This document shows, in pieces, positions 3,373 to 22,217 of a DNA stretch of 22,229 nucleotides. The notes beneath the pieces were generated by a model. That model had not been told where the DNA came from. It saw only the letters and a list, made by a program, of their open reading frames with translations, and did no database searches. Location of the stretch: the IMG/VR virus record IMGVR_UViG_3300042691_008470, positions 1-22,229 of that record. One strand, 5' to 3'. The DNA is from a virus. Numbering within the stretch: position 1 is the stretch's first letter; every line of letters begins with the position of its first letter. Made by a program: the position numbers and the translations under genes.

Positions 3373-4011
3373 ATGGCATATAGTCGTGGAACATCGACCA
3401 ACATTATCGTTGGTGCTGCAGCACTTTTCGTTGCAGATACAACCCTAACTCCAAATACTCTGGAGACTTTTAGTACAGAAGTATCGTTCAAGGAAACCCT
3501 TGCTGACGATGCAGGCTATACAAACGTGGGTTATACCATGAACGGTCTTGAATTACAGTTCCAACCAGACTTCGGTGAAGTTCAGGTTGACCAAATTCTT
3601 GACGTTGCTAAACTTTACAAGCAAGGTATGCAAGTAAATCTTGCAACTGCTTTTGCTGAGGCTACCCTTGAGAACCTTCTTTTGGCTCTAGCATTTAACT
3701 CAGACGAACTATCTGGTTCAAAGGCATCACACACAGGACAGGTTTTAAACCTATCAGGTGGAGATATCGGAGAATGTCCAGTAGAGCGTGGAATTGTTGC
3801 AGTAGGACCTGGTACAGGTGATTGCGTAGATTCTCCATTCGTGGAGCGTGTTTACACAGCATACCGTGCTTTGTCAATTGAAAACGTAACAGTTTCAGCA
3901 AAGCGTGACGAGGCTTCAATGTTTGAAGTTTCATTCCGTTTGCTACCAGAAGATACTTCAGGCTCATACGGTAAGATCGTTGATCGTACCTTCGGAGACC
4001 TATTGTCTTAA
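3373..4011 (+). CDS. Major tail (tube) protein
   Basis: This 212-residue protein forms the repeated rings of the tail tube around the tape measure. It begins MAYSRGTSTNIIVGAAALFV, then has beta-rich segments (TEVSFKETLADDAGYTNVGYT), here best recognised by YTNVGYTMNGLELQF at about residues 50-64. A helix follows (VDQILDVAKLYKQ), and the C-terminal strands run from VSAKRDEASMFEVSFRLLP. The size and position, between tail terminator and chaperone genes, are those of major tail proteins. It has its own promoter and terminator, an AGAGGTGA ribosome binding site right before the ATG, and codons richer in C-ending and CGT forms than its neighbours. All of these fit a protein needed in hundreds of copies. 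Confidence 0.85.
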   Translation: MAYSRGTSTNIIVGAAALFVADTTLTPNTLETFSTEVSFKETLADDAGYTNVGYTMNGLELQFQPDFGEVQVDQILDVAKLYKQGMQVNLATAFAEATLENLLLALAFNSDELSGSKASHTGQVLNLSGGDIGECPVERGIVAVGPGTGDCVDSPFVERVYTAYRALSIENVTVSAKRDEASMFEVSFRLLPEDTSGSYGKIVDRTFGDLLS

Positions 4012-4030: not shown

Positions 4031-4064
4031 AGCCCATGTCTTCGGATGTGGGCTTTGTTGTTTT
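4031..4064 (+). terminator. Rho-independent terminator with UUCG tetraloop
   Basis: A 10-bp stem pairs 4031-4040 (AGCCCATGTC) with 4045-4054 (GATGTGGGCT), including two G-T pairs, around the loop TTCG at 4041-4044. This is the very stable C(UUCG)G tetraloop. A T-rich tail, TTGTTGTTTT, follows at 4055-4064. It lies 19 nt after the major tail stop codon and should end that transcript. An extended -10 promoter begins 2 nt after the tail. Confidence 0.92.
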
Positions 4065-4065
4065 A

Positions 4066-4074
4066 TGGTAAAAT
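4066..4074 (+). promoter_or_regulatory. Extended -10 promoter P3 (TGGTAAAAT), likely leaderless
   Basis: TAAAAT at 4069-4074 with TG at 4066-4067 is one base off the TATAAT consensus. The -35 region would fall inside the terminator stem and shows no TTGACA match. Only 9 nt separate the -10 element from the ATG at 4084, so transcription should start at or within 1-3 nt of the start codon, giving a leaderless mRNA. No Shine-Dalgarno sequence is present (TTGAATTTAT). Confidence 0.6.
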
Positions 4075-4083
4075 TGAATTTAT

Positions 4084-4779
4084 ATGGCAACTACAATATA
4101 TACATCTCAAACAATATATTTATTTGATGGTACGGAATTAGAAATAATACCATTAAAAATAAAATATTTACGTGAATTTATGCAAACCTTTGAAACAATA
4201 AAAAAAACAAAAAATGATGATGAAGCCATGGCGGTATTAGTTGAATGTGTGCGGGTATGTATGAAACAATATTATCCATCAATATCCAAAAGCGTTGAAG
4301 ATGTAGAAGATAGTATAGATATGCCTACAATATATAAAGTATTAGACACCGCTGCTGGAATTAAAATTAATAAAAAGTCAGAAGAACCAGTCAAGAATCA
4401 GGCATTAGACAGTGGTCAAACCTGGGAAACTCTAGATCTTGCAAAGTTAGAATCTGAGGTTTTTTTGCTGGGTATATGGAAAGACTATCAAGAATTAGAA
4501 ACATCATTATCTATGCCAGAACTTATGGCAACCCTAGAGGTAAGTAGAGAGTTAGATTACACAGAAAAGAAGTTTATGGCTGCAATTCAAGGGGTAGACC
4601 TAGATAAGGAATCAAATAAAGACAAAGGTCAAAAAGAGTGGGAAGACATGAAAGCCAGAGTATTTAGTAAAGGCAAAACAAATGATAGCAATGATGTTTT
4701 AGCATTACAGGGTATTAATGCACAGAAAGCAGGGTTTGGTATCGGCATGGGTTTGGATTACGAAGACCTAACAAAATAG
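4084..4779 (+). CDS. Tail assembly chaperone, long form
   Basis: This 231-residue protein combines two parts in one unbroken frame. Residues 1-97 are paralogous to the whole protein encoded at 4820 (shared MATT start, DGT, PLKI, LVECV, MPTIYK/LPTVYK, A-G-I), at roughly 40 % identity by eye. Residues about 98-231 are an extension with helices LGIWKDYQELETSLSMPEL and DYTEKKFMAAIQGVDLD and a charged end. This matches the lambda gpG/gpGT pattern, where the G part binds the tape measure and the T part recruits tail-tube subunits. In lambda and most siphophages the long form needs a programmed frameshift; here it does not. Expression is probably leaderless from P3. The chaperone assignment is strong from position before the tape measure; the G/T division is inference. 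Confidence 0.75.
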   Translation: MATTIYTSQTIYLFDGTELEIIPLKIKYLREFMQTFETIKKTKNDDEAMAVLVECVRVCMKQYYPSISKSVEDVEDSIDMPTIYKVLDTAAGIKINKKSEEPVKNQALDSGQTWETLDLAKLESEVFLLGIWKDYQELETSLSMPELMATLEVSRELDYTEKKFMAAIQGVDLDKESNKDKGQKEWEDMKARVFSKGKTNDSNDVLALQGINAQKAGFGIGMGLDYEDLTK

Positions 4780-4787
4780 CCTTCCTA

Positions 4788-4796
4788 TGCTATAAT
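4788..4796 (+). promoter_or_regulatory. Extended -10 promoter P4 (TGCTATAAT)
   Basis: Consensus TATAAT at 4791-4796 with TG at 4788-4789 lies between the two chaperone genes, 8 nt after the stop of the first. There is no -35 match. Transcription would begin near 4803, giving a leader of about 17 nt that contains AGGAGG. It lets the short chaperone, and perhaps the tape measure and later genes, be transcribed separately from the long chaperone. Confidence 0.7.
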
Positions 4797-4809
4797 TGAC
4801 ATAACCTAT

Positions 4810-4815
4810 AGGAGG
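4810..4815 (+). promoter_or_regulatory. Strong Shine-Dalgarno site of the short chaperone
   Basis: AGGAGG, the full core complement to the 16S rRNA 3' end, ends 4 nt before the ATG at 4820. It contrasts with the paralogous long-chaperone gene, which has no ribosome binding site, and so predicts a higher translation rate for the short form. Confidence 0.75.
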
Positions 4816-4819
4816 AAAT

Positions 4820-5143
4820 ATGGCGACAACCACGCATGAGGCAGAACAAGTAACCCTCATTGATGGAACAAAAATAACAGTTCGCCCGTTAAAAATCTCT
4901 CTTCTTCGTCCATTTATGAAGAAGTTTGAAGGGGTGGCTAAGGTTGCAGATGATAATGAGAAATCAATGACTCTGCTCGTTGAATGTGTACAAATTGCTA
5001 TGCAGCAATACAAGCCAGAGTTATCTGGAGACATTCAAAAACTAGAAGATCTACTTGATCTTCCAACTGTGTATAAAATTGTTGAAGCGGCATCTGGCAT
5101 TAATCTGTCATCTGTTACCGACATTCTTAACACACAGGAATAA
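4820..5143 (+). CDS. Tail assembly chaperone, short form
   Basis: This 107-residue protein consists only of the G-like domain found in residues 1-97 of the protein at 4084 (MATT start, LIDGTKITV, RPLKISLLRPFM, LLVECVQIAM, LEDLLDLPTVYK, then a 10-residue tail). It corresponds to the short chaperone (lambda gpG type) that coats the tape measure before tube assembly. It ends 25 nt before the tape measure start, so there is no room for a downstream frameshifted T extension; the only T-like region is in the first gene. It has its own extended -10 promoter and an AGGAGG site. The two DNA sequences have diverged, so the duplication is not recent. Confidence 0.75.
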   Translation: MATTTHEAEQVTLIDGTKITVRPLKISLLRPFMKKFEGVAKVADDNEKSMTLLVECVQIAMQQYKPELSGDIQKLEDLLDLPTVYKIVEAASGINLSSVTDILNTQE

Positions 5144-5168: not shown

Positions 5169-8100
5169 ATGGCTGATGTTAATGCTAATATTGGCGTAAA
5201 TATAGATACGTCTGCAGCGTTAGCACAACTAAAGGCTTTACAGAGACAGATATCTCAGTTTCACTCTTCCATCGCTAAATCTAGCGAATCAGCAGCAATT
5301 GCTCAGAAGTCTCTGCAGAAAAACCTAATTGGTAGTATTAATTCAATTGGCGCTTTTTCTGCAGAACTTAGAACTGTAAGAACAAGCGCAGAATCTTTTA
5401 CTAATTCTTTAGAAAAAAATAAGTTTTCAATGCGGGAATACTTCCGCTATGCTGGTGCATCTACAAAAACTTTTGGAAGACTATTTAAATCAGAATTTGA
5501 CACAATTGGCAAGGTAGCCGAAGAACGTGTAAAGACACTACAAACCCAATATATTAAAATGGGTCGTAATGCTAGTGGGGCAATGGAAGCAATTGCTATT
5601 AGACCTACCTCCCTTAATATGCAAGACTACGGAACAAAAACAGCCGTTGCAGCACAAAAACAAGCATTATTTAATCAGTTAATGAAGCAAGGTACTACCA
5701 ACCTTTTAAATTTTGGTAAAAATACACAGTGGGCTGGTCGCCAACTTATGGTTGGTTTTACAATACCACTAACTATTGTTGGTTCAACTGCCACAAGAAC
5801 ATTTATGGAAATGGAAGCACAAGCCCTTAAATTTAGAAAAGTTTATGGAGACTTGTTTACACCAAAAGAAGAAACTAAACTTGCCTTAGATAATATTACA
5901 GAACTTGGAAAACAATTTACTAAGTATGGCATTGCAGTTTCTACTACTGTTGGATTGGCAGCAGAGGCAGCAGCAGCAGGTTTTCAAGGTTTAGATTTAC
6001 AGCGTCAAACAACAGAAGCAACACGTCTTTCTGTCCTTGGTCAAATTGATAGTCAAAAAGCACTTGAAACAACCATTTCTTTACAAAATGCATTTGGTAT
6101 GTCATCCGATAAACTTGCAGACTCTATTAACTTTTTAAACGCAGTAGAAAACCAAACAGTTGTATCTCTTGATGATATTACTACTGCCATTCCAAAGGTA
6201 GCACCAGTTATTCAGCAATTAGGTGGAGACGTAAAAGACTTAACATTCTTTATTGCAGCCATGAAAGAAGGCGGTATTAATGCATCAGAAGGTGCTAACG
6301 CTTTAAAGTCAGGTCTTGCAGCATTGATTAATCCCACTGGTAAAGCATCTGAAATGCTTGCTCAATTTGGAATAAATGCAAAAGAAATTGTTGTAAAAAA
6401 TAAAGGCGATTTAAAAGCAACAGTTATTGAATTTGCAAATGCTTTAAATCAATTAGATCCTCTTAATAGAGCACAGGCAATTGAACAGATGTTTGGTAAA
6501 TTCCAGTTTGCTCGTTTATCAACATTATTTGCTAACGTAGCAAAAGATGGAAATCAGGCTGCTCGTGTACTTGATTTAGCAAACTCATCAGTAGAAGAGT
6601 TGTCTGCTCTTTCTGAGCAAGAATTAGGAATGACAGCAGATTCTGCAATGAATAAATTTAAAAAGAGTGTTGAAGATCTTAAACTCGCACTTGTTCCAGT
6701 TGGAAAAGCATTTTTAGAAGCAGCAACACCCATTGTAGAGTTTGTTGGTGGAGTGCTAGAAAAATTTGGAAACTTGTCAGATGGTACTAAACGTCTTATA
6801 ACTGTTTTAACTGTTGGTATTGGTGCAGTTGGACCAATATTTTTAATGACATTTGGTTTACTTGCTAACTTACTTGCTAACGCAGTTAAAGGTGCAATGA
6901 TATTAAGGCAAGGATATTTAAGACTAAGTGGTCAATCAGAAATTTTGGGACAACAAACACAGTATTTAAATACCGAACAACTAGAAGCCGCCGCCGCTGC
7001 ACACTCACTAGATCAATCACATGCAAGATTAACACAACAATTTACTGCTGAAACAGCAGCACTTCAAAAATTAATTGCTGCATACCAAAGCGCTGCTAGA
7101 GCAGGTCAATCATTTATGTTTAATAATCCTGGAATGATGATGCCAGGACGGGGCGGTAAAAAATTAGCAAGTGGTATTGTTTCAGTACCAGGACCAAAGG
7201 GTGCAGGAGACATAGTTCCAGCAATGTTATCTCCAGGAGAAGCAGTTATTCCAACAGATATGGCAAAGAAATATGCTCCTTTAATTCAAGGAATGATTGC
7301 AAATAATATTCCAGGATATCAAGATGGAAGAAATCCTTCCAGTTCTATGGGAATGGTTTTTGCTCACGGAGCAGCAGGCAGAAATCTTGATCAACAAGCA
7401 ATTCAACAACTAGCCTCGGCTGTTTCACAATCAGTAGCAAGAAATCTTGAACAAGCAACAAGAGTAAAAGCATTTACTAATTTTGGATTTGTTGCTCCTG
7501 AAAAACTAAATAAAGGAAAAATGTCTGGTACAGAGGGTGGACAATTTTTTGAACAAAACGCAGAATTGGCTACATCAAGAATATATAAGAGTATAACAAG
7601 TCTTTTACCTTCAGCAGCATCTGATCCAGCAGTAAAACAAGATGTAATTTTGTTTGGTAAAAACATAGGAAAGCAACTATCTTTAGCAGGCTCAAAGGCT
7701 GTTTCAGATCCAGAATTTTATAATGCTGTAGAAATTGCTTTGCAAGAAACAATGACACAAGCAACAACTCAAGCATTTAAAGAATCTTTGCCAAAAATAC
7801 AAAAACAAGTAACAACAATAGGTGCATTTGGTGGAGAAATTAATCGTGGAGATCGTGGACAAAGAATAGGTTTATCTAGAAAAGTTCAAATGCAGGGGTT
7901 GGGTTATGAGCAAGGAATAACTTCATATAAATCACAAACCTTATTCTCACAATTACAAAAACAAGGTTTTAATCAAGGACAGCAGTTATCTATGTCTGCT
8001 GTAAGTGGTGCAAAACAAGGTGCTGCTGCTGCGTCTCCATCTAAGAAAACAATAAAAGTTGGTCAAGATATTGCTCGTGGTCTTGAAGTTGGAATGTCAG

Positions 8101-11039
8101 ATAGACAAGACGATGTTGCACTAGTAGGTTCTCAATTAGGTAGGGCTGCTACTGGCGGAGTTAAAGGTGGAGTTGGATCCATTCCATTTAGAGCACCAGG
8201 ACAGCCAGGCTATGTAGCATCAAATGTGCCTAAATCAGCAGGAATTCCATTATCAGAAACAGTTGCAAAAGCAAGGGTAAACAGAGAAAATCTCATAAAC
8301 CTTCAACAACAAAAACAATCACAATTACTAATGGCATCTACTCAAAAATTAGGTAATTTAAATAATAAAATAATGGGCAGTACTTTTGCTCTAACATCTC
8401 TTGCTGGCATTGCATCAATGGCTGGTGGCAATTTAGGAAAACTATCAGAAGTTATATTTAAAATTAGCGGAGTAGCATTTGCATTTTCTAGTATTTTACA
8501 AATACTTCCAAAGAGTTTAATTGGATTTATAAGTAAGTTTAAGTTTGCATTTGGTGGTGCTGCACTAGCATTGACTGCTGGTATTGCAATTATTAAATTA
8601 GTTAATGCTGCAAGAGAAAGAGAAAGAAAACAATTAGAAGCATTTGGCGATGCTGTAAAAAATACAAAAGAACAAATTCAAGGTTTAGGTGATTATTTTG
8701 GAGTTATCCCTACAAAAACTGGATTAGAAACTACTAAGCCACAACTAATTGTTGATAAAAATACAAGAGAAGCACTTGACAAATTTAAGGCATCAGATAC
8801 ATTTAAAGAATTTGCATCTACAATAGAGGCTGTCTCTAAACTATCAGATAATGATGCAATGACTGCATTAAAAACAAAAGGTCAAGAATTGCTTGGAAAA
8901 GGATTTACAAAAGACCAGGTTTCTCTAATTCTTAGAGCAATTCAAGAAGAGGCTGGCAGAACAAGCCTAAAGGTTGACTTTAAAAATATAGATATAAATG
9001 TATTAAATACTGAACTACAAAATGAAATTACTACAAAATTATCAGCATTGCCTAAATTTATTAATGAAAATCTTGAAAGAAAGATGGTGTTAAATGAATC
9101 TGGAAGATGGGTATCGCAACTAGTTCCTGGCAAAAAAATAGAGGCAGAGTTAAAAAATTCAGGAGCATTGCTTAAAACTTTCTTTAACGGATTATCTGGA
9201 ATGTTTAAAAATGGAGTAATAACTGGAAAAGAGTTTAATGCTTCATTTGCTAAGACAATGGATACGTTGATAACACAAATTCCAAATGCAAGACAACAGA
9301 CGTTATTGTTAAATGCTGCATTAAATCAGATGGAGTCAGAACTTGCAAAAAATGCTATACAGATTAATGATGTTAAAGACAAAATTTTGCTTTTACAGGC
9401 AGCGGCAGTTAATGCTACAGTATCTATGGCAGCGCTGGGTGCTTTAAGAATTGCTGCAGATGATCCAAAAGATGTTGATGCCCAAATTAGGGCAGCAGCA
9501 GTTAGATCAGACGTTGCTAAAGCAATTGCTGACGCAACTAAACTACAAGAAATTGCAAATAAGTCATTAAATAATTCGTACAAAGATGTAAACAATACAG
9601 AAACAAAAAAAGTAAAAACACAATTAGATGTATTAAAACAAGCACAAGACTTTATTGCTCTTCAAGAACAATTAATTGATATGCAAAATGCTTCAAAACT
9701 TAAAGCATATAATGATGAATTAGAAAGACAAGAGGAATTATTAAAAGATATAAATAAAGAAATTGATAAAATTACAGAAACTTCAATTACACCAATTGAG
9801 GCAAAAATAAAATCTAACTCTTATTTAATTGATCAAATAGCAATTAAAGAAGAAGAAATTAATGAGCAATATAATTTACAAATTCAAGCACTAAATAAAG
9901 TACGAGACATTAATCAAGAAATTAATGCATCTGAAAAAGAGAGATTAACTCTTGCTGATGCACTTACTCGTGGAGATATTTCTGCTGCTGCGTCAATCGC
10001 ACAAGATGCAAGAGCAAGGCAAGCGGCATTTATTAATGAAAGAATGGAAACATCTTTAGCCACATCAAGAGATTCAAGAATTTCTTCACTTGGTAGAAAT
10101 ACATTAGAAAAAGAAAACAAACAGTTACAACTTGATATTGCTAAAATTCAAAAAGAACAACTGGATGGATTAGGTTTTCAAAAAGACGCAATTCAAAAAA
10201 ATATTAATGCTCAAAATGAATTAAGGTCTAATTTAGAAAAGCAAATTCAAACAACAAAAGAAGGAATTACATACTTAGGTTTAACAAAAGCACAAATTGA
10301 TGAATCTGTTAAGGCTTTAGATCTTGCACAAAATGAAAATATAAATTTAACAAGTGATTCATTTTTAAGAAATGTTTTAAAAGGAGCATTGGGTGACGCT
10401 AACTCTCTAGTTATGGCTTTAGATGCAGTTGCTAAAGCATCAAAAGATGCATTTTCTACTTCAACAGCAAAAAAGATTACAGATATAACTGCTCCATCAA
10501 TACCTTTAGCAGATACCGCTGCAACTCTTGCAAAAGTAAAAACAAATATAGAAAACTTAATTACTAAGGTTCAAACCACAGTAAAAATACCAGATACTCC
10601 CGCTGGTGGCGGAGGCGGTACATCAAAAAATTATGGATATACACCTACTGCTTCAAGTTTTACTTATGGGCAAGGAAATCCAGCAAAAACTTCTGTATAC
10701 GTTCCACCAAAAACAGCCGCAGTGTCTTATCGTGCAAGAGCAATGGGTGGAATAATTCCTAAATATTATGTTTCTGGGGGATACTCTAAGGGTACCGACA
10801 CAATTCCAGCAATGCTTACTCCTGGAGAATTTGTTGTTCGTAAAAATGCTGTTGACTCATTTGGAGTAAATAATCTTAATAAAATAAATGATGGCTCATA
10901 TGGAGGGTCTTCAGTGTATAATTATAGTTTAAGTGTTAATGTTAAATCTGAATCTAGTCCAGACGATATTGCAAGAACTGTTATGACTCAGATTAAACGA
11001 ATTGACAGTCAAAGAATTAAGACTCAAAGAGGGGCATAA
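5169..11039 (+). CDS. Tail tape measure protein
   Basis: This 1956-residue protein sets tail length; at about 0.15 nm per residue it predicts a tail near 290 nm. Residues about 190-450 match the TP901-type tape measure core (GRQLMVGFTIPLTIV, AAEAAAAGFQGLD, GGINASEGANALKSGL). Hydrophobic segments lie near 541-574 and 1072-1147. A long coiled-coil region spans about 1479-1710. Two copies of a PAML(S/T)PGE motif occur, near residue 680 (GDIVPAMLSPGEAVI) and near 1876 (GTDTIPAMLTPGEFVV). An internal SPSKKTIKVGQDIARGLEVG segment near 950 resembles one often seen toward the ends of other tape measures. The ATG has an AGAAGGTG site upstream. The stop overlaps the next start (TAATG). It is assembled with the chaperones encoded just upstream. 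Confidence 0.95.
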   Translation: MADVNANIGVNIDTSAALAQLKALQRQISQFHSSIAKSSESAAIAQKSLQKNLIGSINSIGAFSAELRTVRTSAESFTNSLEKNKFSMREYFRYAGASTKTFGRLFKSEFDTIGKVAEERVKTLQTQYIKMGRNASGAMEAIAIRPTSLNMQDYGTKTAVAAQKQALFNQLMKQGTTNLLNFGKNTQWAGRQLMVGFTIPLTIVGSTATRTFMEMEAQALKFRKVYGDLFTPKEETKLALDNITELGKQFTKYGIAVSTTVGLAAEAAAAGFQGLDLQRQTTEATRLSVLGQIDSQKALETTISLQNAFGMSSDKLADSINFLNAVENQTVVSLDDITTAIPKVAPVIQQLGGDVKDLTFFIAAMKEGGINASEGANALKSGLAALINPTGKASEMLAQFGINAKEIVVKNKGDLKATVIEFANALNQLDPLNRAQAIEQMFGKFQFARLSTLFANVAKDGNQAARVLDLANSSVEELSALSEQELGMTADSAMNKFKKSVEDLKLALVPVGKAFLEAATPIVEFVGGVLEKFGNLSDGTKRLITVLTVGIGAVGPIFLMTFGLLANLLANAVKGAMILRQGYLRLSGQSEILGQQTQYLNTEQLEAAAAAHSLDQSHARLTQQFTAETAALQKLIAAYQSAARAGQSFMFNNPGMMMPGRGGKKLASGIVSVPGPKGAGDIVPAMLSPGEAVIPTDMAKKYAPLIQGMIANNIPGYQDGRNPSSSMGMVFAHGAAGRNLDQQAIQQLASAVSQSVARNLEQATRVKAFTNFGFVAPEKLNKGKMSGTEGGQFFEQNAELATSRIYKSITSLLPSAASDPAVKQDVILFGKNIGKQLSLAGSKAVSDPEFYNAVEIALQETMTQATTQAFKESLPKIQKQVTTIGAFGGEINRGDRGQRIGLSRKVQMQGLGYEQGITSYKSQTLFSQLQKQGFNQGQQLSMSAVSGAKQGAAAASPSKKTIKVGQDIARGLEVGMSDRQDDVALVGSQLGRAATGGVKGGVGSIPFRAPGQPGYVASNVPKSAGIPLSETVAKARVNRENLINLQQQKQSQLLMASTQKLGNLNNKIMGSTFALTSLAGIASMAGGNLGKLSEVIFKISGVAFAFSSILQILPKSLIGFISKFKFAFGGAALALTAGIAIIKLVNAARERERKQLEAFGDAVKNTKEQIQGLGDYFGVIPTKTGLETTKPQLIVDKNTREALDKFKASDTFKEFASTIEAVSKLSDNDAMTALKTKGQELLGKGFTKDQVSLILRAIQEEAGRTSLKVDFKNIDINVLNTELQNEITTKLSALPKFINENLERKMVLNESGRWVSQLVPGKKIEAELKNSGALLKTFFNGLSGMFKNGVITGKEFNASFAKTMDTLITQIPNARQQTLLLNAALNQMESELAKNAIQINDVKDKILLLQAAAVNATVSMAALGALRIAADDPKDVDAQIRAAAVRSDVAKAIADATKLQEIANKSLNNSYKDVNNTETKKVKTQLDVLKQAQDFIALQEQLIDMQNASKLKAYNDELERQEELLKDINKEIDKITETSITPIEAKIKSNSYLIDQIAIKEEEINEQYNLQIQALNKVRDINQEINASEKERLTLADALTRGDISAAASIAQDARARQAAFINERMETSLATSRDSRISSLGRNTLEKENKQLQLDIAKIQKEQLDGLGFQKDAIQKNINAQNELRSNLEKQIQTTKEGITYLGLTKAQIDESVKALDLAQNENINLTSDSFLRNVLKGALGDANSLVMALDAVAKASKDAFSTSTAKKITDITAPSIPLADTAATLAKVKTNIENLITKVQTTVKIPDTPAGGGGGTSKNYGYTPTASSFTYGQGNPAKTSVYVPPKTAAVSYRARAMGGIIPKYYVSGGYSKGTDTIPAMLTPGEFVVRKNAVDSFGVNNLNKINDGSYGGSSVYNYSLSVNVKSESSPDDIARTVMTQIKRIDSQRIKTQRGA

Positions 11040-18398: not shown

Positions 18399-18407
18399 TG
18401 ATATAAT
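18399..18407 (+). promoter_or_regulatory. Extended -10 promoter P5 (TGATATAAT), likely leaderless
   Basis: Consensus TATAAT at 18402-18407 with TG at 18399-18400 begins immediately after the stop codon of the previous gene (18396-18398). Only 8 nt (GGATATAT) separate it from the ATG at 18416, so the transcript should begin at or next to the start codon. No Shine-Dalgarno site or -35 is visible. No later promoter of this strength is apparent before 22217, so it may also feed the replication genes. Confidence 0.65.
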
Positions 18408-18415
18408 GGATATAT

Positions 18416-18859
18416 ATGGCTAAATTACCCTTACCAGAACGAGGACAACCCTTAGATGTAACCTATATCTATGAGTTGGTCAAAACTGTAAACGACCTAT
18501 CTACAGAGGTTTCTTCTGCTGCATATAATTTTACAAGCATTGACAATGGTCCATCAATTAAAGAAACTGTAAAAACTTCAAATGCAAGAGTTGTTGGTGG
18601 ATATGTAGAAATTTTTACAAACAGTATTGTGAGTGCAGGTAACGAAAGAGCATTTACTTATTCATTTCAGAATGATTTTAAATTCCCGCCAATAGTTACA
18701 GCAACAGCATTAAACATTGGAAATACAGAGGCTGGTCAAAACGTTACAGTTGTTTTACAAAAACCAACTACGTCTAAAGTTGATGGGTTTGTAAGGTTTG
18801 GAGCATCTGGAAATCTGTCGCTTGCCGTTAACCTAATTGCTATTGGTATTCCGAACTAA
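18416..18859 (+). CDS. Short fibre-tip or receptor-binding candidate
   Basis: This 147-residue protein has a short N-terminal arm (LPERGQPLDVTYIYELV) and a helical stretch (KTVNDLSTEVSS) that could form a trimeric coiled coil. A beta domain follows, ending FKFPPIVTATALNIGN...VTVVLQKPT...DGFVRFG...NLSLAVNLIAIGIPN. The FPPIVTATA plus final hydrophobic IAIGI strand pattern resembles the C-terminal modules (H-type lectin-like) of phage fibres and spikes. Being the last tail-type gene, with its own promoter, it may be a receptor-binding tip made at high level or at a different time from the rest. It appears to be translated from a leaderless mRNA. The fold and role are inferred. Confidence 0.5.
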   Translation: MAKLPLPERGQPLDVTYIYELVKTVNDLSTEVSSAAYNFTSIDNGPSIKETVKTSNARVVGGYVEIFTNSIVSAGNERAFTYSFQNDFKFPPIVTATALNIGNTEAGQNVTVVLQKPTTSKVDGFVRFGASGNLSLAVNLIAIGIPN

Positions 18860-19780: not shown

Positions 19781-20088
19781 TGGCTGACCGCAAAGACCGT
19801 ATGGCTTTGCTTAGTAGATATAGTAAATTGCACACAGCAAAATACGAGCAAAAGCCATCTTTAAATTTAAACGTAGAGCAGTGGTCCGCTGATTCTCTTA
19901 TAGAGTCTTATGGTATTTCTGGTTGCTATGATTTGCTTGAATATTATTTTAGTATTGCACAAGAGCCAAGTTGGAATTACTTTTCTTATAATGCAGAAAA
20001 AATTCTTAATGGTAAACTAGATATACAGCAAGATATTAAAGAACGAACAGAGCGCAGGAAATTAGCAAGAAGGTGGTTAAGTGAATAA
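19780..20088 (+). CDS. Small helical protein before the helicase
   Basis: This 102-residue, mostly helical protein contains a basic N-terminus (MADRKDRMALLSRYSKL), a central segment (WSADSLIESYGISGCYDLLEYYF), best recognised by IESYGISGCYDLLEYYF, and a charged C-terminus (KERTERRKLARRWLSE). It starts by TAATG overlap with the preceding gene and overlaps the helicase start by 8 nt. Genes in this place are sometimes helicase loaders or replisome adaptors, and its size would allow that, but no loader motif or ATPase signature is visible, so the role is unassigned. Confidence 0.6.
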   Translation: MADRKDRMALLSRYSKLHTAKYEQKPSLNLNVEQWSADSLIESYGISGCYDLLEYYFSIAQEPSWNYFSYNAEKILNGKLDIQQDIKERTERRKLARRWLSE

Positions 20089-21304
20089 TACAGAAGCAAA
20101 AGTTATTTCAGCACTATTACAAGATAAACAAATGCATGTATTATTGCAAGCCAATGTAGAAAATCTTCTTAGAACTCATAATGATGTGTGGAACTTTATT
20201 CGTTTATACTTTGATAATAATGGATCCATTCCACCAGCATCTTTAGTAATAGAAAAATTTAGAGACTTTCAGCCAATAGAAGGTGTTGGTGCTACTAAGC
20301 ACCATCTTGAAGAATTACAAACAGAATACTTAAATGATAGCCTTAAAGACATTTTAAGGTCTGCAGCAGGTGAGGTGCAAGTTGGCAATGGCACAGAAGC
20401 ACTAAATGGATTAATTACAAAAACCTCTGAGTTAAAGAAAAACACTTCTGCTATACGTGATATTGATGCTACAGATCTTGACTCTGCCGTCGCATATTTT
20501 GAAAAGATTCAACAACAAAAATTAACTGGTCAGGTTGGAATTAAAACAGGTTTGCCAGGATTTGACAATTACCTACCTTCTGGAATTATGCCAGGACAAC
20601 TTGGTGTGTTCTTAGCATATCCAGGCATTGGCAAATCTTGGCTTGCTCTTTATTTTGCAGTACAGGCATGGAAGCAAGGCAAGTCCCCATTGGTTATATC
20701 CCTTGAAATGTCTGAGACGGAAGTTCGTAACCGTGTATTTGCAATTATGGGTGAAGGTCTTTGGTCTCATCGTAAACTAAGCAATGGCGAAGTAGAACTT
20801 GATATGCTTAAGAATTGGCATGCTAATAAAATAGCAGGTAAGCCAGAGTTTCATATTATCTCAAACGATAATGGCGGAGAAGTAAACCCATCTGTAGTTC
20901 GTGGAAAGATTGATCAATATAAACCAGACTTTGTTATTGTTGACTACCTGCAATTAATGTCACCAAACCAAAAATCGGATAATGAAACGGTACGTATGAA
21001 AAATCTTTCAAGAGAACTTAAACTTATGGCTATTGGTGAAGAAGTTCCTATTATTGCTATTTCATCTGCTACCCCTGACGATGTAAAAGATTTAAGTAGT
21101 GCTCCAACACTTGGTCAAACAGCATGGTCTAGACAGATTGCCTATGATGCTGACTGGGTAATGGCATTGGGTCGTGCTACCAACAGTGATATTATTGAAT
21201 GTGTATTTAGAAAAAACAGAAATGGTTTTATGGGTGACTTTTTAGTGCAGGTAGATTTTGATAAAGGCTATTACAGATATAAGGATTATGAAGATGGTAA
21301 ATAA
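20081..21304 (+). CDS. dnaB: DnaB-type replicative helicase
   Basis: This 407-residue protein starts at GTG with an AAGAAGG site upstream. Residues about 1-110 form a helical N-terminal domain. From about 150 there is a RecA-like ATPase: IKTGLPGFDNYLPSGI, Walker A AYPGIGKS (A179-S186, with K185 binding phosphate), VISLEMSE, and Walker B VIVDYLQLMSP (D288). The arginine-rich end has VMALGRATNSDIIECVFRKNRNG, here recognised by FRKNRNG. This is the DnaB C-terminal order. It should unwind DNA at the phage fork as a hexamer and work with the primase encoded just downstream. It is a little shorter than bacterial DnaB (about 450-470 residues), mainly in the N-terminal domain. Confidence 0.92.
   Translation: MNNTEAKVISALLQDKQMHVLLQANVENLLRTHNDVWNFIRLYFDNNGSIPPASLVIEKFRDFQPIEGVGATKHHLEELQTEYLNDSLKDILRSAAGEVQVGNGTEALNGLITKTSELKKNTSAIRDIDATDLDSAVAYFEKIQQQKLTGQVGIKTGLPGFDNYLPSGIMPGQLGVFLAYPGIGKSWLALYFAVQAWKQGKSPLVISLEMSETEVRNRVFAIMGEGLWSHRKLSNGEVELDMLKNWHANKIAGKPEFHIISNDNGGEVNPSVVRGKIDQYKPDFVIVDYLQLMSPNQKSDNETVRMKNLSRELKLMAIGEEVPIIAISSATPDDVKDLSSAPTLGQTAWSRQIAYDADWVMALGRATNSDIIECVFRKNRNGFMGDFLVQVDFDKGYYRYKDYEDGK
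21281..21285 (+). promoter_or_regulatory. Shine-Dalgarno site that decides the primase start
   Basis: AAGGA lies 8 nt before ATG 21294, a good spacing. It lies only 2 nt before the in-frame ATG at 21288 and downstream of that at 21258, so 21294 is preferred. Confidence 0.5.
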
Positions 21305-22217
21305 TATTTATAGTAAAGAACAAATACAAAGAGTTTTAAATGGTGCAGGTATTGATGTAGAAGCAGAATTTGGTAATGACTTTATTATCTATTGCCCATA
21401 TCACAATAATACAAGAACTCCCGCTGCTGAGGTTGCAAAAGATAGTGGTTTGTTTTTTTGCTTTGGCTGTCAAACTACAAAAAATCTTGAAGAGTTTGTT
21501 ATGTTTGTAACTGGCAGAACTTATTTTGAGGCAGCACGGTATATAAAAAGCAAACAAACAGAAACAAATATTGAGAGTGTAATTAATAAAACAATGTATG
21601 CTCCACCAGACTTTGTTCAGTATGATGAAGTATTAATTAAAAGATTAAACAATCAAGCCTTAGAGTCTCCAAGAGCAATGAGATATTATTCTAATAGACT
21701 TATAACAGAAGAATCAGTAAAAAAGTTTGCTTTAGGGTATTCAGAGAAACAAGATATGGTTACAATACCAGTTCACTCTCCAGATGGAATGACTCTTGGT
21801 TTTGTTGGTAGATCTATTGAAGGTAAAGAATTTAAAAATACTCCAGGACTTCCAAAAGGTAAACTATTATTTAATTTGCACAGAATTAAGGCATCTAGTT
21901 TAGTATATGTAGTTGAATCATCTTTTGATGCTATAAGACTAGACCAAGTAGGATTCCCAGCAGTTGCAACACTGGGCGCTAACGTATCTGCATCGCAGAT
22001 TAAGTTATTAGAAAAGTACTTCAATAATGTTGTACTTGTTGCAGACAATGACGAGGCTGGCGCAATAATGAAAGATAAGTTAATTGAAAAACTTGGTTCA
22101 TTAGTCAGCGTAGTAAATATAGATAAAAAATATAAAGATATAGGCGATATGGATGATGATGCAATTAGAAGCCTTGAGTTTCAATTTGACAAATCTATAT
22201 CATCTATGCTAAACTAA
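21294..22217 (+). CDS. DnaG-type DNA primase
   Basis: With the start at 21294 the protein has 307 residues. An N-terminal CHC2-type zinc finger is visible: CPYH (C34, H37) and FFCFGC (C56, C59). The middle includes YYSNRLITEESVKKFALGYS, here recognised by ITEESVKKFALGY, which is typical of the DnaG catalytic core N-terminal part. The TOPRIM domain follows: VYVVESSFDAI (E208) and VLVADNDEAG (D251, D253), the acidic residues that bind metal. The end carries YKDIGDM. It should make RNA primers for the phage fork with the DnaB-type helicase, whose gene it overlaps by 11 nt. It is about half the length of bacterial DnaG and lacks an obvious helicase-binding C-terminal domain, as in many phage primases. 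Confidence 0.9.
   Translation: MVNNIYSKEQIQRVLNGAGIDVEAEFGNDFIIYCPYHNNTRTPAAEVAKDSGLFFCFGCQTTKNLEEFVMFVTGRTYFEAARYIKSKQTETNIESVINKTMYAPPDFVQYDEVLIKRLNNQALESPRAMRYYSNRLITEESVKKFALGYSEKQDMVTIPVHSPDGMTLGFVGRSIEGKEFKNTPGLPKGKLLFNLHRIKASSLVYVVESSFDAIRLDQVGFPAVATLGANVSASQIKLLEKYFNNVVLVADNDEAGAIMKDKLIEKLGSLVSVVNIDKKYKDIGDMDDDAIRSLEFQFDKSISSMLN

Follow-up and report, generated by a model that had tools for sequence, protein, structure and literature searches.

The described systems closest to the locus analysed here come from phages of several kinds, among them the Stanwilliamsviridae, which are siphophages, and the T4 group, whose members have contractile tails. In lambda, G and GT are produced at a ratio of 30:1 by a -1 frameshift at one locus; G binds the tape measure protein and T recruits the tail tube protein, and G/GT frameshifting is described as widely conserved among long-tailed phages (PMC5009743). 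Some T4-like phages are reported to have a short gene together with a fused long gene (PMC10885494, citing Vladimirov, Gautam and Davidson 2022). The chaperones of Microbacterium EA1 phages are said to come 'from two separate genes' (PMC11659878).

Leaderless genes are in wide use among Actinobacteria (PMC3160421), and such genes carry a TANNNT element a few nucleotides before the start codon and no Shine-Dalgarno sequence (PMC3898074, PMC3160421). Leaderless promoters have also been predicted in Cluster O mycobacteriophages (PMC4351075). In the literature searched, which leaves most subscription papers outside, we found no paper that connects leaderless initiation with the gene of a tail chaperone.

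We analysed a stretch of 22,229 nucleotides of viral DNA, hereafter the window (IMG/VR virus record IMGVR_UViG_3300042691_008470). Its genes at 4084 and 4820, here called GT and G, are identified by their sequences as two tail assembly chaperones of an uncultured phage lineage. Like G and GT of lambda, they encode a short and a long form with a common N-terminal domain, but lambda obtains the two forms by frameshifting at one locus instead of from two genes. The Stanwilliamsviridae (Coruscant, Jay2Jay, Circinus and Patelgo) have homologous G and T in the same position between the tail protein and tape measure genes, with a terminator-like site and an extended -10 element upstream of the chaperone locus. 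Unlike the window, they have one G place per record (124/124) and T in the -1 frame; in the Patelgo record the two chaperone pieces are annotated as a joined CDS. The likeness to the T4-like phages is one of description: short and fused long forms come from separate genes and no frameshift is needed. As PMC10885494 states the arrangement, a short gene and a long gene that fuses the short one with a downstream part, it is also what the window contains, but its description of the arrangement does not mention leaderless initiation. Compared with the known leaderless genes of Actinobacteria and their phages, the difference is that here one paralogous chaperone is predicted to be leaderless and its partner is not. 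We argue below that the locus probably represents a two-gene chaperone lineage in which the leader was lost from GT and the ratio of the two proteins is set by initiation instead of slippage.

Methods

Relatives were collected in seven IMG/VR scans, from each of which the best 80 loci were fetched; in four of the scans, these were the best 80 of about 600 or more candidates. The counts given below describe the loci fetched in this way together with four phage records, and exceptions to the patterns are possible beyond the best 80 loci per scan. The 541 fetched loci and the window, less the window's own copies L165 and L166, gave 540 loci for analysis. We left out L121, which has no T, and L098 and L328, which are one contig and have no upstream G, and took 537 loci further. 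The 437 loci with both neighbours complete were reduced by k-mer clustering to 114 representatives, comprising 91 in which G and T are fused in one frame and 23 in which they are in split frames. The split-frame loci L171, L180, L205 and L209 are without one neighbour and are absent from the trees. Four fused representatives without an automatic G start (L073, L425, L456 and L501) are absent from the G counts (n=87); read by eye, all four have AGGAGG. Counts on the full set (298 GT and 284 G) exclude duplicates as well as units whose upstream sequence is too short. In one seed alignment of G, two of the six sequences (L162 and L164) carried an altered residue (V5 to M); the profile made from it served to find hits and for nothing else.

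Results

The initial annotation had read the 4820 gene as coding for a lone G-like domain and the 4084 gene as coding for a diverged copy of that domain, joined in one unbroken frame to a T-like extension. Both readings hold (Table 1). The N-terminal domains of the two proteins have 42/97 identities (43%) with one 1-residue gap, and the BLASTP E of 2e-31 rules out a chance similarity. Profile comparison also makes them homologous, as both match PHROG 10504 (GT 5.7e-24, G 9.1e-21). PHROG 10474 is matched by GT only (2.9e-16, residues 131-222), and the 107-residue G protein has no such match. In the Streptomyces phage Jay2Jay, PHROG 10504 is the G frame and PHROG 10474 the -1 T frame, and thus the extension of GT is a true T homologue. 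Among 10 fused members that were aligned, the T extension is 42-49% identical to the T of Coruscant. The absence of a T-like frame behind the short gene, also part of the earlier reading, was borne out: the stop codon of G ends at 5143 and the ATG of the tape measure gene is at 5169, with 25 nt between them, and no T frame concealed behind the short gene was found in the ORFs or the sequence of the window.

Table 1. Features of the chaperone locus and its neighbours in the window
Feature	Position	Strand	Details
Probable major tail protein gene	3373..4011	+	PHROG 2175 1.2e-32 (Ig-domain protein)
Terminator-like hairpin with T-rich tail, behind the tail protein gene and ahead of GT	4031..4064	+	10 pairs, loop 4, tail TTGTTGTTTT
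Extended -10 TGGTAAAAT, predicted leaderless GT promoter	4066..4074	+	9 nt before ATG
GT-like long tail assembly chaperone gene	4084..4779	+	231 aa; G domain and T extension in one frame; no Shine-Dalgarno site
T extension within GT	4423..4767	+	PHROG 10474; homologue of the -1 frame T of Streptomyces phages
Extended -10 TGCTATAAT, predicted leadered G promoter	4788..4796	+	23 nt before ATG
Strong Shine-Dalgarno AGGAGG of G	4810..4815	+	-9.9 kcal/mol in the window
G-like short tail assembly chaperone gene	4820..5143	+	107 aa; PHROG 10504, ORF, BLASTP
Tail tape measure protein gene	5169..11039	+	PHROG 10030 5.5e-79; TIGR01760 6.2e-30

Pfam and NCBIfam gave no named family for GT or G. Both genes are flanked by the probable major tail protein gene upstream and by the tape measure gene downstream, which is the position of the chaperone class. 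The product of the upstream neighbour also matches PHROG 885 (major tail protein), weakly (E 0.23), and its gene occupies the syntenic place of the gene annotated as major tail protein in Coruscant, Circinus and Patelgo. By analogy, the tape measure protein would be the expected partner of G. Using tblastn, we found GT to be related to chaperones in 130 phage records (127 Streptomyces and 3 Rhodococcus) and G to chaperones in 124, all Streptomyces, with one place per record; many of the 40 matches listed per query are annotated 'tail assembly chaperone'. Behind the tail genes, the window also harbours a gene for a DnaB-like helicase (20081-21304) and one for a DnaG-like primase with a zinc ribbon and a Toprim domain (21258-22217).

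AlphaFold models of the two proteins are of middling confidence (pLDDT 72 for GT and 67 for G) and have a strand pair and a helix run in common. In BFVD, a collection of viral predicted structures, the best named matches of both models are tail assembly chaperones. The HK97 chaperone 2ob9 was aligned by VIA-align with the GT model (Z 3.9, 85 residues, rmsd 4.7) and with the G model (Z 4.7, 87 residues, rmsd 4.8), both scores being tied with those of unrelated chains. A Foldseek search of the PDB with the GT model yielded no match under E 0.001, and sequence-profile searches of solved structures yielded none for GT and a single match, at E 0.88, for G.

The same gene pair is common to uncultured relatives in IMG/VR. 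Among the loci fetched (the best 80 per scan), G and T are in one frame in 294 of the 321 distinct units that show both domains, and the other 27 are split-frame. There are 322 distinct T sequences in these loci, of which 285, the window's included, are fused and have a second G downstream, and 25 are split-frame with the second G absent. The other 12 could not be scored, as the sequence behind T is too short in 9 fused and 2 split-frame loci and 1 locus starts after the first G, showing T and then G. A second G is thus found behind all of the fused units with at least 450 nt after T (285/285), and the rule that fused units have a second G and split-frame units have none is without exception in the 310 scored units, which are related and do not amount to 310 independent cases. 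With so many distinct T sequences in this arrangement, a sequencing or assembly artefact or the oddity of a single contig can be dismissed. In L292, a class I methyltransferase-like gene (L292:3403-4032; Pfam Methyltransf_25, 8.2e-16) lies between GT and G, which shows that the pair need not be adjacent.

In all 23 split-frame representatives, T lies in the -1 frame. Among the loci fetched, the nearest split-frame relatives are L186, L199, L203, L230, L251, L316, L476 and L519. They have the same synteny and promoter module as the window, and their mean identities to the fused group are 62% in T and 54% between their G and the lone G. In contrast with the window, they possess a single G, the heptamer GGGAAAC and a leadered promoter with a Shine-Dalgarno sequence, and no second G follows. 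The heptamer is in phase (G GGA AAC) in 8/8, and the G frame ends 12 to 39 nt after it. Eight other split-frame representatives have CCCAAAT, and in the remaining seven (L161, L163, L167, L168, L170, L174 and L175) we found no strict slippery heptamer in the overlap. On these signals, the split-frame relatives look like real frameshifters. The proposal in the initial annotation that two genes stand in place of frameshifting is thus sustained by the in-frame GT with its second G and by the existence of close frameshifting relatives.

The hosts of these phages are probably actinobacterial. Two scans detected no relatives of the chaperones in genome contigs, and the host inference therefore rests on a WhiB gene, present in 17/22 contigs of relatives (15/18 fused and 2/4 split-frame; the window is not among them) and in 1/14 control genomes, that of C. 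glutamicum.

A backbone tree was built from the tail and tape measure proteins, with the chaperones excluded. It has one change of state in the 114 representatives, compared with a shuffled mean of 21.2, and supports the fused side with an SH-aLRT of 91. In a careful 42-row tree, the nearest split-frame loci group together (98/88) and the fused group lies on one side of a branch with values of 30/56, a weak support that we attribute to the remoteness of the Streptomyces outgroup and that would allow a reversal of state. A quick T-only tree (39 rows) gave two changes for each group, with an unclean separation of fused and split-frame loci. Frameshifting is the likelier ancestral state, given that the trees contain 15 representatives from the Streptomyces side and all of them are split-frame.

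The two G copies do not relate to the split-frame G in the same manner. Within the set, the lone G has a mean identity of 66%, compared with 52% for the G domain of GT. In trees holding both G copies, the lone G joins the nearest split-frame G (support of 100/100 in a careful tree and 90 in a quick one) and the G domain of GT stays outside. The 54% mean identity of the lone G to that split-frame G compares with only 40% for the G domain of GT, despite the 62% identity of the T parts. The G half of GT would thus be either fast-evolving, freed from the role of bulk chaperone, or of older or foreign origin. The second option, under which recombination brought in the G domain of GT from another phage, or the duplication predates the split and the relatives later lost one copy, would fit both this grouping and these identities. 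Nevertheless, a domain that evolves faster, as the within-set identities indicate for the G of GT, can be drawn towards the outgroup. In addition, the AU test rejects neither a clade of the two G copies (p 0.267) nor a grouping of the first G with the split-frame G (p 0.244). We therefore keep an older or foreign origin as a tentative alternative that deserves some weight.

The initiation signals upstream of the two genes differ, a point that the initial annotation had missed. Calculated with the general bacterial anti-Shine-Dalgarno sequence, which may not be that of the host, the median Shine-Dalgarno duplex energy is -2.9 kcal/mol for GT (n=91) and -9.9 kcal/mol for G (n=87). The signal of GT is weaker than that of G in 86/87 representatives and equal in 1; in the full set, it is weaker in 277/284, equal in 1 and stronger in 6. 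Conversely, a TANNNT element ends 5-10 nt before the ATG of GT in 88/91 representatives, compared with 19.9 after shuffles that preserve the letters of each upstream stretch but not its dinucleotides, and the extended form TGNTANNNT is present in 79/91 (2.5 shuffled). The full set gave 292/298 for TANNNT at 5-10 nt and 279/298 for the extended form. The same test for a near TANNNT was positive for only 2/87 G genes and 0/23 split-frame G, and, with starts picked automatically, for 1/90 tail protein genes and 0/91 tape measure genes. The G gene has an extended -10 TGNTANNNT further away, 11-60 nt upstream and mostly at 24-28 nt, in 87/87 representatives (6.2 shuffled), and 22/23 split-frame G also have an extended -10 upstream (2.0 shuffled). 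A leadered G promoter was detected in 275/284 units of the full set.

In mycobacteria, most primary transcription starts have a TANNNT centred 7-12 bp upstream of them (PMC3898074). By this spacing, the near TANNNT implies that the GT transcript should start at the ATG or within a few bases of it, and the GT mRNA should thus be leaderless or nearly so. As judged from these signals, GT falls in the class of leaderless genes, with a -10 from which transcription would begin no more than about 5 nt from the start codon and no Shine-Dalgarno sequence. In the window itself, the -10 sits 9 nt from the ATG, and hence a leader of a few nucleotides is likelier than none. A near -10 combined with a weak Shine-Dalgarno sequence was found just for GT and for the gene at 18416 among the 21 window genes checked; in the latter, the upstream stretch 18399-18415 contains an extended -10, TGATATAAT, 8 nt before the ATG. 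This gene may also be leaderless.

Not all units conform. Six of the 298 GT units have no near TANNNT (L135, L142, L147, L157, L160 and L231), and in 19/298 an extended -10 is found more than 10 nt from the ATG. Read singly, L135, L142, L147, L154 and L213 have the extended -10 14-20 nt away, followed by a short leader with a G run. A partial return to the leadered state is possible in these five, and also in L157, L160 and L231. Alternative in-frame starts upstream of GT are available in 32/91 representatives, and 4 loci (6 starts) have a Shine-Dalgarno-like stretch there.

Terminator-like sites were scored in the gap between the tail protein and chaperone genes in 74/91 fused and 20/23 split-frame representatives. 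The scorer is crude and had no shuffle control; stems made of A-T pairs only pass it, and for the window it chose a weaker site than the hairpin of Table 1. Between GT and G, this crude scorer found such a site in only 6/87. Where the distances are measurable (64/91 fused and 6/8 nearest split-frame loci), the hairpin and the -10 are similarly spaced, with medians of 10 nt in fused and 8 nt in split-frame loci, whereas the -10 and the start codon are separated by 7 nt in fused loci versus 31.5 nt in the nearest split-frame ones. This combination would fit a GT gene that retained the promoter without its leader. Correspondingly, the tail protein and chaperone genes are closer together in fused loci, with a median gap of 72 nt, versus 85-101 nt in the eight nearest split-frame loci.

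The paralogue pair might replace frameshifting without any contribution of leaderless initiation to the ratio. In that case the leaderless promoter of GT would be incidental, and the ratio would result from promoter strength, mRNA decay or protein turnover. In M. smegmatis reporters, leaderless mRNAs gave less protein than leadered ones, but genome-wide in M. tuberculosis the protein per mRNA does not differ systematically between the two classes, such that leaderless status alone is no predictor of it (PMC7148126). Leaderless initiation is thus not always weak, which counts against it as the mechanism that keeps GT low, and both GT and G have extended -10 elements, whose strengths could set the ratio. 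Nevertheless, an incidental arrangement should drift, and the near -10 is kept in almost all of the diverged units (292/298) and missing from the other genes tested. Overall, we consider an incidental promoter fairly unlikely and favour a ratio set by initiation.

Near the junction of the two domains, we found no conserved slippery site in the 91 fused GT genes. Strict in-phase heptamers of any kind are present there in 13/91 genes, which is scarcer than the 24.6 expected from codon shuffles. GGGAAAC occurs anywhere in 18/91 GT genes and is not found among the in-phase junction sites. On this ground, we set aside a frameshift still present in GT as improbable. The locus also departs from the lambda type, with its -1 T behind G and its slippery site, as T is in frame and no site is conserved. 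GT seems, on this evidence, to make no short frameshift product. It is highly improbable that a residual frameshift, or a transcriptional slip at a possible candidate place such as the A8 run (4200-4207) of the A8-C-A6 stretch contained in the window's GT (4200-4214), yields the short product and leaves the downstream gene otherwise employed, since that stretch lies inside the G domain, away from the junction, in-phase heptamers near the junction are below expectation, and of the two G copies the second is the better conserved.

Discussion

The two-gene reading that we favour can be laid out as a series of steps. The ancestor would have had a single locus, from which a -1 frameshift yielded GT beside G. 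In the lineage of the window, GT would then have become one continuous gene, with a separate G gene supplying the short form; the comparison of relatives points to this direction as the likelier one. In the simplest reading, GT retained the old terminator-promoter module and lost a leader of about 25 nt together with its Shine-Dalgarno sequence, and the G gene resembles the ancestral state in its promoter and leader. The leaderless start would be the sole source of GT. For G there would be two sources, its own promoter and probably also the GT transcript, since terminator-like sites between the two genes are rare, and a strong Shine-Dalgarno sequence would serve in both cases. Many copies of G and few of GT would thus be set by the number of promoters and the mode of translation initiation, not by slippage, and the result should be an imbalance of the sort that slippage produces in lambda. 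By analogy with lambda, G would bind the tape measure protein and T would recruit the tail tube protein.

A broader claim can be made, namely that control of the protein ratio shifted from frameshifting to a paired initiation switch, with a leaderless mRNA for the long chaperone, obtained when the old promoter lost its leader, and a Shine-Dalgarno mRNA for the short paralogue, which was then kept through a large radiation of uncultured phages. We regard this claim as evenly balanced.

The principle of a short gene accompanied by a fused long gene is not new, given the precedent described for the T4-like phages. As far as the literature was searched, what is new is its occurrence in a lineage related to the Stanwilliamsviridae, the comparison with close frameshifting relatives, and the pairing of leaderless with Shine-Dalgarno initiation.

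These loci are also a warning to annotators, as no frameshift should be forced on such genes. To our knowledge, whether slippage itself matters in the production of tail assembly chaperones, or only the ratio, is not settled. With split-frame and two-gene relatives that have the same promoter module, this question becomes directly askable, and the lineage offers a natural test of leaderless versus Shine-Dalgarno initiation as a device for setting a protein ratio.
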